Shown in pieces: positions 34,740 to 40,829 of a stretch of DNA of 63,341 nt. Below the pieces are notes generated by a model that saw nothing but the letters and a program-made list of their open reading frames with translations, did no database searches and was not told the DNA's origin. This DNA comes from an uncultured Bacteroidota bacterium (GTDB lineage Bacteria > Bacteroidota > Bacteroidia > Flavobacteriales > Flavobacteriaceae), in contig CABZAD010000007.1 in NCBI GenBank assembly GCA_902523665.1, positions 1-63,341 on the forward strand. Direction: 5' to 3'. Position 1 is the first letter of the stretch; each line of letters opens with the position of its first letter. Position numbers and translations under genes: made by a program.

Positions 34740-35393
34740 ATGAAATTTTTTATAGACACTGCTAATCTCAATCAAATTAAAGAAGCCCAGGATATGGGAA
34801 TTCTTGATGGTGTTACTACAAATCCATCTTTAATGGCTAAAGAAGGTATAACGGGTGAAAAAAATATTATTGATCACTATCTTAAAATATGTGACATAGT
34901 TGATGGTGATGTTTCTGCAGAGGTTATATCAGTAAATTATGATGGAATTATTAAAGAAGGTGAAGCTTTGGCATCTCTTCATAAACAAATTGTTATAAAA
35001 GTTCCTATGATAGAAGAAGGTGTTAAAGCCATTAGATATTTAAGTGATAAGGGATTAAAGACTAATTGCACACTGATTTTCTCATCCGGTCAAGCTTTGT
35101 TAGCTGCAAAGGCTGGCGCTACATATGTTTCCCCTTTTATAGGAAGACTTGATGATGTTTCCACCGATGGATTAGACTTAATATCTGACATAAGAGATAT
35201 TTATGATAATTATGCTTATGAGACAGAAATTTTAGCTGCATCTATAAGACATACTATGCATATAATTGATTGTGCTAAAATTGGAGCAGATGTTATTACA
35301 AGCCCTCTATCTGCAATTAAAGGTTTATTAAATCATCCTTTAACTGATATTGGTTTAGAGAAGTTTTTAAGTGACCATAAAAAAGGTAACTAA
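34740..35393 (+). CDS. Fructose-6-phosphate aldolase / small transaldolase
   Basis: A 217-residue class I aldolase of the TalC/FSA group. The N-terminal MKFFIDTANLNQIKEA and GVTTNPSLMAKEG are diagnostic, the Schiff-base lysine is Lys87 in IVIKVPM, and SPFIGRLDD follows. In flavobacteria this short form commonly serves as the transaldolase of the pentose phosphate pathway, so it would act with the split transketolase at 7.1-8.9 kb. Its stop shares CTAA with the stop of the convergent lipoprotein gene. Confidence 0.93.
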   Translation: MKFFIDTANLNQIKEAQDMGILDGVTTNPSLMAKEGITGEKNIIDHYLKICDIVDGDVSAEVISVNYDGIIKEGEALASLHKQIVIKVPMIEEGVKAIRYLSDKGLKTNCTLIFSSGQALLAAKAGATYVSPFIGRLDDVSTDGLDLISDIRDIYDNYAYETEILAASIRHTMHIIDCAKIGADVITSPLSAIKGLLNHPLTDIGLEKFLSDHKKGN

Positions 35394-36793
35394 TTTTCTT
35401 TTAAAATATCTTCAATTTCATTAGTAAAAAGATTACTAAATCCATCAATAATATTGACTTTCTGATCAGTTATAATTGTCTTATTTAAGTATGTTAGCAC
35501 CCAGTCTTTACTTGAGCTTTCAAAGTCCTTAAATGAAAATTGATTTGATAATTCAAGATTTAATATATTTTGAGCTTGACTTACCATATCAGTATATGGC
35601 TGAATACATATGCCTACAAACCTATAATCTGGAAATTGTACTTTTAGCTCTTCCACTCTTCTTATTGTCCTTCTGTAATGATTCATCTGGGTCTGAGACC
35701 AAAAATATATTAATGATTTTGAGCCTTTTAATTCATCTAAACTGGATTTAGTAGATCCTCTAGAGTCGAGGATTTTAATATCTGGAAGTGAATTTCCTTT
35801 TTTCATTTTTTCAATATCCTTGTAGAGTTTTGTTATTTCGTTTAGATATTGTACTGATGAGTTTACGTAAGTGAAATAATCAATAAACTCATCATGATAA
35901 TCATTATTCTTAAAATTTAGTATTTCTTCAATAGCTGTAGCTCTAGCTAAATTATTTTTTAAAGATTGATCGGTAATTTGAGAATCAATGATTAAAAGTT
36001 TTTTTATATTAAAATCTGTGTTATTTTTTTCATAGAAATATACTTTTCCACTATCTAATGTTTTTTCGTTAAAATAGTTCATTAGATATGTTATATAAGG
36101 CTCAAAAAGTGATAAATCTGAATCATTTAAGTTCATTCTCTCTCTGTAACTATAATATTCTTCTTTTTCAAATTTGTCCCAATCTTTCCCTCTTAATAAG
36201 GCATATCTTTCAAGCTTATTAAAATAATTATACTTTATACTGGCTTTTGTAATGTTTTTTGAAAGTCTTTTTTGATTTACACTCCTATTAAAAATATCCC
36301 ATATCTTATTTTTTTCATCTATAAGGGAGTCAATAGCTCTTCTGAACACTTTACTCTCTTGTGAGTATATTTCATAGATATATCCTGTCTCTGAATCATC
36401 CAATATCGACATATCCACCAAAAAATTATTTTTGGATGATCCTTTTCCACTAAATGTTAAAGATTCTCTGAAATCCTCAACATTTACTCTAATCCATAGA
36501 CTATCACCGTTCTCAACTATAATATTTTGATTTTCTGGAACATGTTCAATTCTGTAAATTCCCGGTCTAATATCTTCAATTTTCTTAAAAAATTTATTTT
36601 GAGAATCTAATTGTATTGAATCAATTTTAATATTGTTATAATAGAAGTTTACATAACTTGAGGATGGATTAATAATTTCTCCTCCAAGAAAAAAACTATT
36701 ATTTTGTTTATCCTCACTACAAGAGATTGTAATAAGCGAAATAATAGTAGCTATAATTAGTTTTAGAAATTTCAACTTACTATTTTTGCGCAT
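35390..36793 (-). CDS. Thioredoxin-fold lipoprotein lacking the CxxC active site
   Basis: A 467-residue lipoprotein (lipobox ITISC, Cys25). The N-terminal half has a DUF4369-like strand region (about 30-115), a helical linker spans about 130-330 and a TlpA/AhpC-like domain follows (about 335-460). At the position of the usual WCxPC the sequence is FWSQTQMNHYR, with no cysteine, so disulfide exchange is not possible there. A structural or binding role is likely. Its start codon is only four bases from the divergent ABC-F start. Compare the intact relative at 60868-61995. Confidence 0.78.
   Translation of the reverse strand: MRKNSKLKFLKLIIATIISLITISCSEDKQNNSFFLGGEIINPSSSYVNFYYNNIKIDSIQLDSQNKFFKKIEDIRPGIYRIEHVPENQNIIVENGDSLWIRVNVEDFRESLTFSGKGSSKNNFLVDMSILDDSETGYIYEIYSQESKVFRRAIDSLIDEKNKIWDIFNRSVNQKRLSKNITKASIKYNYFNKLERYALLRGKDWDKFEKEEYYSYRERMNLNDSDLSLFEPYITYLMNYFNEKTLDSGKVYFYEKNNTDFNIKKLLIIDSQITDQSLKNNLARATAIEEILNFKNNDYHDEFIDYFTYVNSSVQYLNEITKLYKDIEKMKKGNSLPDIKILDSRGSTKSSLDELKGSKSLIYFWSQTQMNHYRRTIRRVEELKVQFPDYRFVGICIQPYTDMVSQAQNILNLELSNQFSFKDFESSSKDWVLTYLNKTIITDQKVNIIDGFSNLFTNEIEDILKEN
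36781..36788 (+). promoter_or_regulatory. TAnnTTTG box of the ABC-F gene, inside the divergent lipoprotein gene
   Basis: TATTTTTG matches the consensus and ends nine bases before the ABC-F ATG at 36798. It lies within the first codons of the minus-strand gene, whose ATG is at 36793-36791. Confidence 0.5.
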
Positions 36794-36797
36794 ATTT

Positions 36798-38420
36798 ATG
36801 TTATCAGTATCTAATTTATCGCTTCAGTTTGGAAAAAGAGTACTATTTGATGAAGTAAATATAACTTTTTCTCCTGGAAATTGTTATGGTGTTATTGGAG
36901 CAAATGGTGCAGGAAAGTCTACTTTTTTAAAAATTTTATCGAAAGATCTTGAGCCTAATACTGGTTCAGTTTTTCTTGAGCCAGGAAAGAGATTATCTGT
37001 ACTTGAGCAAAATCATAATAGATATGATGAAAATACTGTTATTGAGACAGTAATTTTGGGAAATCAAAAACTCTTTGAATTGAAAAGTGAAATAGACTCT
37101 ATTTATGCAAAAGAAGATTTTTCTGATAAAGATGCAGATAGAGTAGGAGAGCTTCAGGCATCTTTTGAAGAAATGAATGGATGGAATGCTGACGCAGATG
37201 CTGCTTTTTTACTTTCTAGCTTAGGAATTACAGAAGAAATTCATCATAACTTGATGAATGATATTGATCAGAGGGTAAAAGTAAAAGTTTTATTAGCACA
37301 ATGTTTATTTGGTAATCCTGATGTTTTGATTATGGATGAGCCAACAAATGATTTAGACTACAATACTGTTGAGTGGCTTACAAATTTTATTAATGAATTT
37401 GATAATACTGTAATTGTTGTTTCTCATGACAGATTTTTTTTAGATGCTGTATGTACTCATACCTCTGATATTGATTTTAGTAAAATCAATCATTTTTCAG
37501 GTAATTATAGTTTTTGGCAACAATCAAGTGAATTAGCTTCAAAGCAAAAATTACAGCAAAATAAAAAGGCTGAGGAAAAAAAGAAAGAATTACAAGAATT
37601 TATATCTAGATTTTCTGCCAATGTTGCGAAGTCCAAACAAGCAACTGCAAGAAAAAAGATGATTGAGAGACTAAATATTGAAGAGATAAAACCATCCAGT
37701 AGAAGATATCCTGCAATAATCTTTGAACAAGAAAGAGAAGCCGGCGATCAAATTCTTGAACTTAAGTCTCTTTCATATATAAAAAATGGGGATGTTTACT
37801 TTAATGATATTAGTTTTAATTTAAATAAAGGTGAGAAGGTTCTTATACTATCTAAAAATTCAAGATCGATTAACTTTTTTTATGATTGTGTTTCTGGAAC
37901 ATTAAAACAAACATCTGGAACATATAATTGGGGAGTTACAACTACTTCAGGTTATTTACCTATGGATAATAATTCATTTTTTGAAAAAAACATATCCCTA
38001 GTTGACTGGCTCAGACAATGGTCAAATAGTGAAGATGAAAGAGAAGAATTATTCATTAGGAGTTTCCTTGGTAGGATGCTTTTTAGTGGGGATGAAGCTT
38101 TAAAATCATGCAATGTGCTTTCAGGAGGTGAAAAGGTTAGATGTATGCTGTCCAAAATTATGATGGGAAAACCTAATGTTCTTTTAATTGATGAACCTAC
38201 AAACCATCTTGATCTAGAATCGATAACTGCTTTTAACAATTCGCTAGTTAATTTTAAAGGCACTGTACTTTTAAGTACTAATGATAGAGCATTTGCTGAG
38301 TCTGTTGCAAACCGTATTATTGAGATAACACCTAATGGTGTAATTGATAGTTATCTTCCTTTTAACGAATATATTGTTGATGAGAAAATAATTACTCAAA
38401 GAGAAAAATTTTATAACTAA
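36798..38420 (+). CDS. ABC-F ATPase, YbiT-like, with one degenerate ATP site
   Basis: A 540-residue cytoplasmic ABC-F protein; such proteins act on ribosomes rather than in transport. The start at 36798 (MLSVSNLSLQFGKRVLF) is chosen over a TTG at 36786. Domain 1 has Walker A GANGAGKST (34-42), Walker B LIMDEPTND and switch His in VSHDR, but no LSGG. Domain 2 has LSGGEK and LLIDEPTNHLD, but its Walker A position reads LSKNSRSINFF and its switch His is Asn (STNDR). One composite site should work and the other should be dead. The linker is basic and helical (about 240-300). Confidence 0.92.
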   Translation: MLSVSNLSLQFGKRVLFDEVNITFSPGNCYGVIGANGAGKSTFLKILSKDLEPNTGSVFLEPGKRLSVLEQNHNRYDENTVIETVILGNQKLFELKSEIDSIYAKEDFSDKDADRVGELQASFEEMNGWNADADAAFLLSSLGITEEIHHNLMNDIDQRVKVKVLLAQCLFGNPDVLIMDEPTNDLDYNTVEWLTNFINEFDNTVIVVSHDRFFLDAVCTHTSDIDFSKINHFSGNYSFWQQSSELASKQKLQQNKKAEEKKKELQEFISRFSANVAKSKQATARKKMIERLNIEEIKPSSRRYPAIIFEQEREAGDQILELKSLSYIKNGDVYFNDISFNLNKGEKVLILSKNSRSINFFYDCVSGTLKQTSGTYNWGVTTTSGYLPMDNNSFFEKNISLVDWLRQWSNSEDEREELFIRSFLGRMLFSGDEALKSCNVLSGGEKVRCMLSKIMMGKPNVLLIDEPTNHLDLESITAFNNSLVNFKGTVLLSTNDRAFAESVANRIIEITPNGVIDSYLPFNEYIVDEKIITQREKFYN

Positions 38421-38421
38421 A

Positions 38422-40829
38422 TTATTTATCTCTTATAATTGCTCCAAATTCTGCCTTGAAAGCATCTGCAAACTTAGTTATAACTTTATCGATTATCTTA
38501 TCTGTTAGAGTTTTCTTCGAATCATTAAAGGTGAAACTAACAGCAAAAGATTTTTTCTTATCACCAATATTATTTCCTTTGAATTCATCAAAAAGATTAA
38601 CATCTTTAAGAATTTTACTCTCCAAACTGTATGCAATAGTCTTTATGTCTTCAAATTTTATATGATCATCTAAAATTATTGAAAGATCTCTTCTAGAAGA
38701 AGGAAATTTGGATAATTCTTCAAATTTATTGTTGAAACTTTTGAGTTTAATTTTATCTAAATCTAAATTCAAAACATGAACTTTATCATCAATAGAAAAA
38801 TCTTTGTATAATCTATATCAAGCTCTCCAATAAAACCAATATCTTTTTTGTTTGAGACTATTTTTAGTTTGAATTCAAATATATCATCTTGTTCTATTTC
38901 GTATTTATAATTTAAGATATTTAGTTTCTCTAATAAGTTATTAGAAATCCCTTTTAGATAATAAAAGTTGTTTTCTGTGTAATCTGTTATCCAATTTTCC
39001 TCAAATACATTTCCTGTAATTGCAACATTTAGTCTCTTATTCTCAAAGTTATCATTTTTAATAACATTATAATTGTTCCCAATCTCAAATAATTTAAGAC
39101 TTTTATTTTGTCTATTGGAATTATGTTTAATAGTTTGAAGTGCACCAGGGATAAGAGAAATTCTAAGATTTGATAATTCAGTCCCTAGTGGATTTAATAA
39201 TTTAACAGGTGTATTTTTATATTTATCGTTTATTGATGGAGAACAGATAGAATTATTTATAATTTCATTAAACCCTATCCCAACAAGAGTTTGACTAATG
39301 ATATTTTCAATTAAATTGATGCTGTTTTTACCAGTTTCTGGAATAGACATAGAAATTTTATTTTCAATATTAATATTATCATACCCATACACTCTTAATA
39401 TTTCTTCAATTACATCTATTTCTCTGTAAACATCATATCGATAGTTTGGAGCAATAATATTAATTCCATCCTCGATAATTCCAATGATTTCAAAATCAAG
39501 AGAGTTTAAAATTTGCATAATAGTTTCACTATTAATTTTTTGACCAGATACATTTTCAATTTTTTCATATTTCAGATAAATATCTTTTTTTTCTAACTTT
39601 AAATTGTCCTCTGAGAAAACTTCTGAGATAATACACTCAGGGTTATCCTCTTTAATAAGGTTTGCTGCTCTTTTTAAAGCATAAATAACTTTCTCAGGGT
39701 CAACACCTCTTTCATATCTATATGATGCATCAGTAAAGAGTTGATGTCTTTTTGATGATTTTCGAATCGTTACAGAATCAAAAATAGCTGACTCTAAAAA
39801 TAAATTTTTTGTTGAGTTTGATACTCCTGAATCTAAACCACCATAAATTCCAGCTAAACATAGCGGCTTGTTTTCAGAGCAAATCATTAAATCATCTTTG
39901 CTAAGTTTAATTATTTCATCATCTAACGTCTTGAACTTAGTTCCTGCTTTTAAAGATTTAACACTTATATTATTTAATTTATCAAAGTCAAATGCATGAA
40001 GTGGTTGTCCTATTTCATGCATAACAAAATTTGTTATATCTACTATGTTATTGATTGGTTTTAAACCAATTGATTTTAATTTATTTTGAATATTTTCTGA
40101 AGATTTTTTGACTACAATATCTTTAATAATTAAACCTGAGTAAAAAGGACATTTATCTTTATCTTTTACAATTAGAGCAAAATCCTCGTCTATATTTACT
40201 GACTCAAAAGAACTAATTGATGGAAGATTAATTCTACTTTTGATAGATTTATAATCATAATATGCTTTTAAATCTCTTGCTACTCCATAGTGTGACATAG
40301 CATCACATCTGTTGGGTGTTAAACCAATTTCAAGAATACTATCACTATTAATATTAAATATTTGACTTACAGGAGTACCGGGTTTAATTTTTTTATCTAA
40401 AACCATTATTCCATCATGTGAATCACCTAATCCAATTTCGTCCTCGGCACATACCATTCCATTACTAACAACACCTCTAATCTTTGATTTTTTTATTTTT
40501 ATTTCAATCCCTTTATTTGTGTATATTTTTGATCCAGCGACTGCAACAGGGACCATTTGCCCTTTTTCTATATTTGGTGCACCACATACTATTTCTGAAA
40601 TTTGATTATTTCCAAGATCAATTGAAGTTAACTTCAATCTATCAGCATTTGGATGTTTAACACATTCTATCACTTTTCCAGCAATCACTCCCTCTAGACC
40701 TCCTTTTATAGATTCAAATGATTCAATTTTTTCTACTTCTAATCCTAAATTTGTTAAAATTTCAGATATTTCGACTGGGTTTAAGTCAGTTTGAACATAT
40801 TCTTTAAGCCAGTTTATCGATATTTTCAC
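38422..40829 (-). CDS. pheT: Phenylalanyl-tRNA synthetase beta subunit, frameshifted in this sequence
   Basis: PheT charges tRNA-Phe together with PheS. Reading from 40829 gives the tRNA-binding domain (GKVIECVKHPNADRLKL), B3/B4 editing region and catalytic-like core up to about residue 678 (GELDIDYTKIF), then eight out-of-frame residues and a stop at 38769. The missing C-terminus, the FDX-ACB anticodon domain (KFPSSRRDLSIILDD), is encoded in another frame to 38422. The frames join at a run of five A (38796-38800, T on the coding strand); one more base would give KIFSIDDKVHVLNLD and a normal total of about 802 residues. A sequencing or assembly indel is the likeliest cause; a true mutation or slippage is possible. 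Confidence 0.9.

Follow-up and report, generated by a model that had tools for sequence, protein, structure and literature searches.

The window analysed here, a stretch of 63,341 nucleotides from an uncultured member of the Flavobacteriaceae (contig CABZAD010000007.1 of assembly GCA_902523665.1), carries on its forward strand a single open frame for an ABC-F protein of 540 amino acids (Table 1). The frame begins with ATG, and another in-frame candidate start, a TTG, lies 12 nt upstream. Pfam places PF00005 in two stretches of the frame, that is, two ABC domains (NBD1 and NBD2), and detects the linker ABC_tran_Xtn (PF12848) at 63.2 bits against a cut-off of 25.9, while none of the four Pfam matches is a transmembrane-domain family. 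Two ABC domains in a single chain without membrane spans, as in ABC-F proteins, are indicated by Pfam and by a near-full-length fold match to ABC-F structures. Membership of the ABC exporters, which have transmembrane domains and transport substrates, can be set aside, the ABC-F fold covering the entire chain. The canonical ABC-F proteins EttA, Uup and YheS are described as ribosomal factors (PMC11282234).

The gene is flanked by a divergently oriented gene for a thioredoxin-like lipoprotein and by pheT, both named by eye. The starts of the ABC-F and lipoprotein genes are 4 nt apart (36793–36798), as they are in two relatives (L009 and L010), so that each promoter would lie within the opposite gene. 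In the window, pheT is split into overlapping frames of 686 and 116 amino acids, whereas the close relative L009 has a single 802-amino-acid frame; intact copies thus exist, and the split is either a sequencing error or a real lesion. Among 108 flanked loci, the lipoprotein gene was found at 93, an upstream transaldolase-like gene at 71, and the pheT pieces at 63 and 49, all of which are lower bounds owing to short flanks.

Table 1. Features of the ABC-F gene and its neighbours, in window positions; residue numbers refer to the 540-residue protein and clade rows to the 314 aligned proteins without a canonical second Walker A.
Feature	Positions	Strand	Remarks
Lipoprotein gene, thioredoxin-like (by eye)	35390–36793	−	divergent
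ABC-F (YbiT/YkpA-clade) protein, 540 aa plus stop	36798–38420	+	one open frame
Walker A1, GANGAGKS, residues 34–41, intact, site I	36897–36920	+	G..G.GK[ST] in 321/322 YbiT-type rows, remaining row cut by contig end
Q-loop 1, Gln71, site I	37008–37010	+	invariant in 314 clade rows
Degenerate NBD1 ABC signature, NDIDQRVK, residues 154–161, would serve site II	37257–37280	+	last residue, Lys161, 99% conserved
Walker B1, Asp180-Glu181, site I (MDEPTN, residues 179–184)	37335–37340	+	invariant
Switch His210, site I (SHDR, residues 209–212)	37425–37427	+	invariant
Feature between switch His210 and former Walker A2	37467–37718	+	
Former Walker A2, now SKNSRSIN, residues 352–359, site II	37851–37874	+	
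Thr381	37938–37940	+	313/314 clade rows; missing from the 8 YbiT rows retaining P-loop 2
Former Q-loop 2, Pro388-Met389	37959–37964	+	Gln of E. coli YbiT replaced
NBD2 ABC signature, LSGGEK, residues 441–446, intact, serves site I	38118–38135	+	VLSGGEK, residues 440–446
Walker B2, Asp465-Glu466, kept here (IDEPTN, residues 464–469)	38190–38195	+	DE altered in 46/314 clade rows, 1 gap
Former NBD2 switch His, now Asn495 (TNDR, residues 494–497)	38280–38282	+	common to 18 same-genus sequences
pheT (by eye)	38422–40829	−	split into two frames

An ordinary member of the YbiT/YkpA clade

The best of 183 matched NCBIfam families was NF011646 (PRK15064, the YbiT equivalog), at 591 bits and hence below its curated cut-off of 762 bits, and the closest solved chain by sequence was ribosome-bound Escherichia coli YbiT (PDB 9njf; phmmer E 2.9e-144). 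An AlphaFold model built from 65 sequences (the window protein, 58 of the best 80 of 574 named loci and 6 of 9 further sequences; pLDDT 87.6, pTM 0.74) was used for fold comparison. A weaker model from 26 close sequences (the window protein and 25 of the 80 named loci; pLDDT 66, pTM 0.40) was too poor for a fold search. With the better model, Foldseek ranked 9njf and 9nlf highest (TM 0.83 and 0.73 by query length), and VIA-align gave Z 32.8 with 42% identity over 530 residues for 9njf and Z 33.4 with 39% identity over 523 residues for 9nlf. In a quick tree, the protein grouped with E. coli YbiT and the Bacillus YkpA type, apart from EttA, Uup and YheS, on a branch of 74 ingroup rows with an SH-aLRT of 99. 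The window gene is an ordinary member of this clade, and its interest lies in the one-site design of the clade as a whole.

One intact and one degenerate composite site

In ABC proteins, composite site I comprises the Walker A and B motifs, Q-loop and switch histidine of NBD1 together with the signature of NBD2, and site II comprises the reverse. Residue numbers given in PMC6124641 and PMC8782954 agree with this numbering. Site I of the window protein is complete, with Walker A1, Q-loop 1, Walker B1, the first switch histidine and the LSGGEK of NBD2 all in place. Site II has lost its P-loop, Q-loop glutamine, switch histidine and opposing signature, and Walker B2 (D465, E466) alone is left.

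The earlier note, made from the sequence alone, read the motif strings correctly, with domain 1 retaining Walker A, Walker B and the switch histidine without LSGG (NDIDQRVK standing in its place), and domain 2 retaining LSGGEK and Walker B without P-loop or switch histidine. It overlooked that the NBD2 Q-loop glutamine is lost as well, M389 being aligned to the glutamine of E. coli YbiT. Its count of exactly one complete composite site holds by motif content, and conservation across the clade differs sharply between the two sites. The note had named a P-loop elsewhere in domain 2 as what would overturn it; a regular-expression search rejected this candidate, as G....GK[ST] occurs nowhere in the NBD2 part of the window protein. 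General accounts of ABC-F proteins describe consensus Walker motifs in each ABC domain and two bound ATP (PMC11282234), an arrangement that the window protein would not be expected to support, given that Walker A is missing from NBD2.

The 17 homologues from the same genus, at 80–95% identity, repeat the identical losses. That the pattern is an artefact of a metagenome-assembled or single-cell sequence, or of the alignment, might be suspected from the frameshift in neighbouring pheT, yet these homologues and some 300 other proteins share the losses, and a search free of motif alignment recovers them too, leaving this explanation with practically no probability. A sequencing or frame artefact is ruled out by the 17 same-genus homologues together with purifying selection on the gene.

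The one-site pattern is the norm of the clade

Relatives were drawn from named genomes (the best 80 of 574 homologous loci), from relatives of the window's genome (60 genomes, 46 of them matching at 1e-100), from a sample spanning the class, which is Bacteroidia to judge by the named relatives (197 genomes, of which 144 matched at 1e-80, at least two through paralogues only), from a phylum-wide sample and from named plasmid-collection records. The resulting alignment held 324 distinct proteins, of which 322 were YbiT-type, mostly from Bacteroidota, and two were outgroups (L237 and L238). This count leaves out own-genome duplicates (L001, L118, L185 and L239–L247; further loci of genomes of the same genus that were already represented), six proteins identical to others, and own-genome loci that gave no match at 1e-60. 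G211, split across two contigs, is likewise not part of the alignment. Imperfect rows were L218, cut by a contig end so that the end of NBD2 is missing, L209, without its N-terminus, and L216, which contains X. Sampling outside Bacteroidota was thin, comprising 13 rows from Bacillota, Fusobacteriota and Mycoplasma and 6 from Gammaproteobacteria and Chlamydiota, nearly all plasmid-collection records and some of them probably chromosomes. Six genomes from other families of the order (G043, G046, G049, G051, G056 and G058), 96–100% complete, gave no match at 1e-100, and some families may have no YbiT-type protein or a very divergent one.

Site I was complete in 321 of the 322 YbiT-type rows, the exception being cut by a contig end, and was broken in no row examined. 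Site II, scored as a canonical Walker A2 plus SGG in signature 1, was complete in none of the 322. Over all 324 rows, Walker A2 was canonical in 10 (8 YbiT-type and the 2 outgroups), kept the lysine alone in 12 and was without lysine in 302. By set (sets that overlap a little and are not exhaustive), the lysine was missing from all of the best 80 named loci, from 17/17 proteins of the same genus, 12/12 of the same family, 16/16 from other families of the order, 140/140 of the class sample and 3/3 named Bacteroidota records. The 11 other members of the phylum were mixed (4 without lysine, 5 lysine-only and 2 canonical), as were the 13 rows from Bacillota, Fusobacteriota and Mycoplasma (6 without lysine and 7 lysine-only), while all six from Gammaproteobacteria and Neochlamydia were canonical. 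Independently of motif alignment, 323 of the 324 rows had G....GK[ST] in their NBD1 part, but only 10 had it in their NBD2 part, namely 8 YbiT proteins and the 2 outgroups. GK[ST] occurred anywhere in the NBD2 part of 28 rows; the 10 matching the longer pattern did so at the Walker A2 place, and the remaining 18 lack the preceding P-loop glycine.

The statement in the earlier note that YbiT-type relatives normally keep the second P-loop was thus mistaken, as only 8 of 322 aligned proteins do (five from Gammaproteobacteria, two from a single family of the window's phylum and one from Neochlamydia). The unusualness that it implied falls too, since the same half-dead design recurs in aligned relatives, with none of the 140 class-sample proteins keeping the second Walker lysine. 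The oddity accordingly belongs to the subfamily rather than to the window's organism, and a peculiarity specific to the window was rejected, the losses being class-wide.

Even the eight keepers lack SGG in the NBD1 signature, and the missing LSGG in domain 1 is general in the clade. All five gammaproteobacterial YbiT proteins have P-loop 2 without signature 1. E. coli YbiT, which shares its architecture, nearly its length and 42% of its residues with the window protein, likewise has VAPGWK at the NBD1 signature, but differs in having kept P-loop 2 (GTNGVGKS), Q-loop 2 and the second switch histidine. Relatives from Bacillota and Fusobacteriota are intermediate in their loss of site II. The YkpA/YbiT-type proteins of Bacillus velezensis (L228, YkpA by similarity) and Peptoclostridium (L226), at 52–54% identity, resemble the window protein in having a degenerate P-loop 2 (GRNELAVT and GENEIVNT) and no Q-loop glutamine. 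Bacillota proteins of this type are less decayed, however, often keeping the first glycine or the lysine, and L226 retains an intact LSGGEK as signature 1. The contrast between L226 and the eight P-loop 2 keepers indicates that lineages differ in the side from which site II was broken. Requiring SGG in signature 1 is a strict test, as Cytobacillus L224 shows: with LTGGEK and the lysine of P-loop 2, it has a near-complete site II that may still bind ATP. B. subtilis YkpA is named YbiT in PMC6723617, a survey of ABC-F diversity that also describes BdAF1 as an ABC-F confined to Bacteroidetes.

Walker B2 also varies. LDTPTN occurs in L222, L223, L301, L307, L315, L347 and others, including Bacteroides, and [LM]DQPTN in the Clostridia rows L226, L227, L233 and L360. 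The catalytic glutamate is thus naturally replaced by threonine or glutamine, the glutamine rows amounting to a natural single-EQ substitution at the dead site.

By contrast, 20 of 20 other ABC-F paralogues, hand-picked rather than randomly drawn from the paralogue rows of the phylum sample, have both P-loops, both SGG signatures and both DEPT motifs. The same holds at the aligned places for E. coli EttA, Uup and YheS, which share tandem ABC domains and the linker with the window protein but have both sites complete by motif. The losses at site II are therefore specific to the YbiT/YkpA clade.

Site I is near-invariant and the gene is under purifying selection

Among the 314 rows without a canonical Walker A2, the site I motifs had mean column entropies of 0.00–0.02 bit (single columns 0.00–0.10), against domain means of 0.98 for NBD1 and 1.28 for NBD2. 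At site II, mean entropies were 0.50 bit for Walker B2, 0.96 for the second switch histidine, 1.48 for Walker A2, 1.72 for signature 1 and 2.84 for Q-loop 2. Conservation nonetheless persists at individual positions: Asp465 of Walker B2 is 98% conserved, and Walker B2 DE survives in 267 of the 314 clade rows, as does, in an equal number, the second switch histidine (in both cases 46 rows differ and 1 has a gap). Walker B2 DE, the histidine and Lys161 are conserved beyond what a freely drifting pocket would need. Within the genus, dN/dS came to about 0.044 over the whole gene, with 0.052 in NBD2 and 0.067 in the former P-loop region; these values are approximate given a mean dS of 1.0–1.6 (1.5 for the gene), near saturation. 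The estimates rest on pairs with a defined dS below 3, which numbered 152 of 153 in the gene, 153 in NBD1, 107 in the linker, 125 in NBD2 and 114 in the former P-loop region. The gene is consequently under purifying selection and was rejected as a pseudogene; the protein as such is maintained, but its second site is not preserved for ATP.

The tree, computed from 79 representatives with the trait columns removed, was a quick one; its outgroup branches are long, and it misplaces one outgroup row across its best branch. A branch with an SH-aLRT of 99 separates the rows with a canonical P-loop 2, among them the outgroups, from all others, and the E. coli YbiT group is sister to the clade (SH-aLRT 89). 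Lysine-only rows are scattered over Bacillota, Fusobacteriota, Mycoplasma and one family of the window's phylum, whereas rows of the window's class lie deep inside the tree and are all without lysine. The simplest reading is that P-loop 2 would have decayed stepwise after the split from the gammaproteobacterial type. The tree requires six changes for the lysine-only state and five for the no-lysine state, so the lysine of Walker A2 would have been lost about five times if never regained, a soft number.

The sole ABC-F protein seen in most small genomes of the genus

The genomes of the window's genus, probably of marine origin judging by the names of related records, are assemblies of 0.8–1.3 Mb. 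The window's own genome (81% complete) has one match to the ABC-F linker family. Such matches were found in 18 of 25 genus genomes, in 14 of which the single match is this gene, and the 7 genomes without a match are only 57–84% complete. The one-site protein is thus the sole ABC-F seen in most of these small, incomplete genomes. Among the site motifs, the change of the second switch histidine to asparagine is found in all 18 same-genus sequences (the window protein and 17 others) and elsewhere among aligned rows only in L134, making it peculiar to the window's genus bar one row. L134 and L133, from family f6 of the order, have the most decayed site II among the rows examined, with P-loop, Walker B2 glutamate and second switch histidine all lost.

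Small assemblies, the seven genomes without a linker match and the asparagine at the second switch position could together suggest a protein decaying in a reduced genome, under selection relaxed once its job became dispensable. A dN/dS of about 0.04 and an invariant site I argue otherwise, as does the age of the P-loop loss, which predates the genus and is shared by Flavobacteriaceae with large genomes, by the rest of the class sample and by proteins beyond the phylum; moreover, 14 of the 18 genomes with an ABC-F match have no other. Decay is thereby largely refuted, and we regard it as very improbable.

What became of the former site II

A second nucleotide might still be held at site II without hydrolysis, as at a degenerate site of the CFTR type, being gripped by Walker B2, by the facing domain and by contacts with the backbone. 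The conservation of Asp465 would fit, as would the P-loop serine or threonine that coordinates magnesium, which is kept in most non-canonical rows (threonine in 228 and serine in 54 of 314). In the window protein, however, this position is asparagine, and across the alignment the Walker lysine is lost in 302 of 324 rows, with the P-loop glycines, the Q-loop glutamine and signature 1 likewise degenerate in most. Degenerate sites of the CFTR type generally retain Walker A, which further counts against a nucleotide-bound site II, and we consider such occupancy unlikely.

The old site may instead have been rebuilt as a new surface, either an interface that locks the domains together or a pocket whose different ligand controls how the clamp closes. 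The former P-loop is fairly conserved, being SKDSRATT-like in Flavobacteriaceae, with serine at position 352 and alanine at position 357 each present in 85% of 314 rows and a dN/dS of about 0.07 for the region in the genus, and it is adjoined by a clade-specific Thr381 (313 of 314) and by Pro388, which is at least 99% conserved. The helix that follows the former P-loop begins, in the better AlphaFold model, at residue 355, three residues before its NBD1 counterpart (NBD1-equivalent 37 against 40), but this detail is not robust, since in the weaker model (pLDDT 66) both helices begin at equivalent places. The P-loop columns, moreover, stand at the 68th entropy percentile and are not especially conserved, and their conservation could equally serve folding. 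There are hints, then, that the old P-loop is now structural, and a rebuilt surface is conceivable, albeit distinctly less probable than not.

A translation factor that may close on one ATP

Taken together, the window gene probably encodes a member of the YbiT/YkpA clade that works as a housekeeping ABC-F translation factor, with a clamp that closes on one ATP at site I; the one-site design itself is the clade norm in the rows examined. A single ATP at site I would glue NBD1 to the NBD2 signature, and the closed clamp would enter the ribosomal E site with its linker extending to the P-site tRNA. Hydrolysis by Glu181 at site I would then reopen the clamp and release the protein from the ribosome. 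The NBD2 half would act as signature donor and scaffold, its old nucleotide pocket being empty or kept shut by protein contacts. By analogy with YbiT/YkpA relatives, the protein is likely to facilitate the translation of charged stretches.

TAP, CFTR and other exporters likewise combine a canonical with a degenerate composite site. In B. subtilis RbsA/NupO, the second Walker A also lacks its lysine, as in the window protein, and the signature is deviant (PMC11466899). All of these are parts of transporters, whereas the window protein is a soluble ABC-F. The mechanism of ABC-F proteins is usually told as a two-ATP cycle, with EttA alternating engagement of both sites during 30S rotation (PMC8782954). 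In ABCE1, the two sites share out the work and the protein depends on its site II (PMC6124641), which from the residue numbers is the NBD2 side, opposite to the site kept in the YbiT/YkpA clade. Because EttA alternates two sites and ABCE1 needs site II, a one-site cycle departs from both, and an alternation of the EttA type would be impossible in the window protein as its motifs stand.

A wider proposal, to which we attach somewhat less than even weight, is that the entire YbiT/YkpA branch consists of one-ATP translation factors that abandoned site II by different routes, the signature being lost in Gammaproteobacteria, the P-loop decaying in Bacillota and Fusobacteriota, and both going in Bacteroidota, where the old pocket would have become a fixed element through which one ATP could both close the clamp on the ribosome and reopen it.

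We found no description of a degenerate ATP site in YbiT or YkpA in a literature search that did not extend to the structure paper for 9njf and 9nlf, which may discuss it; the PDB titles of these entries refer to hydrolytic and non-hydrolytic conformations. The terms "Walker A", "P-loop" and "degenerat" do not occur in the main text of the ABC-F diversity survey (PMC6723617). Double EQ2 constructs, which were tested for all four E. coli ABC-F proteins (PMC6723617), cannot distinguish the two sites, and the present findings point to the single Walker B glutamate to mutate for trapping these factors on ribosomes. Judged by its motifs, the YbiT/YkpA clade appears to depart from the general two-ATP description (PMC11282234), and a one-ATP branch, if true, would contradict the general statement of two ATP per ABC-F. 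A housekeeping branch in several phyla with site I only would be a natural experiment on the purpose of the second ATP.
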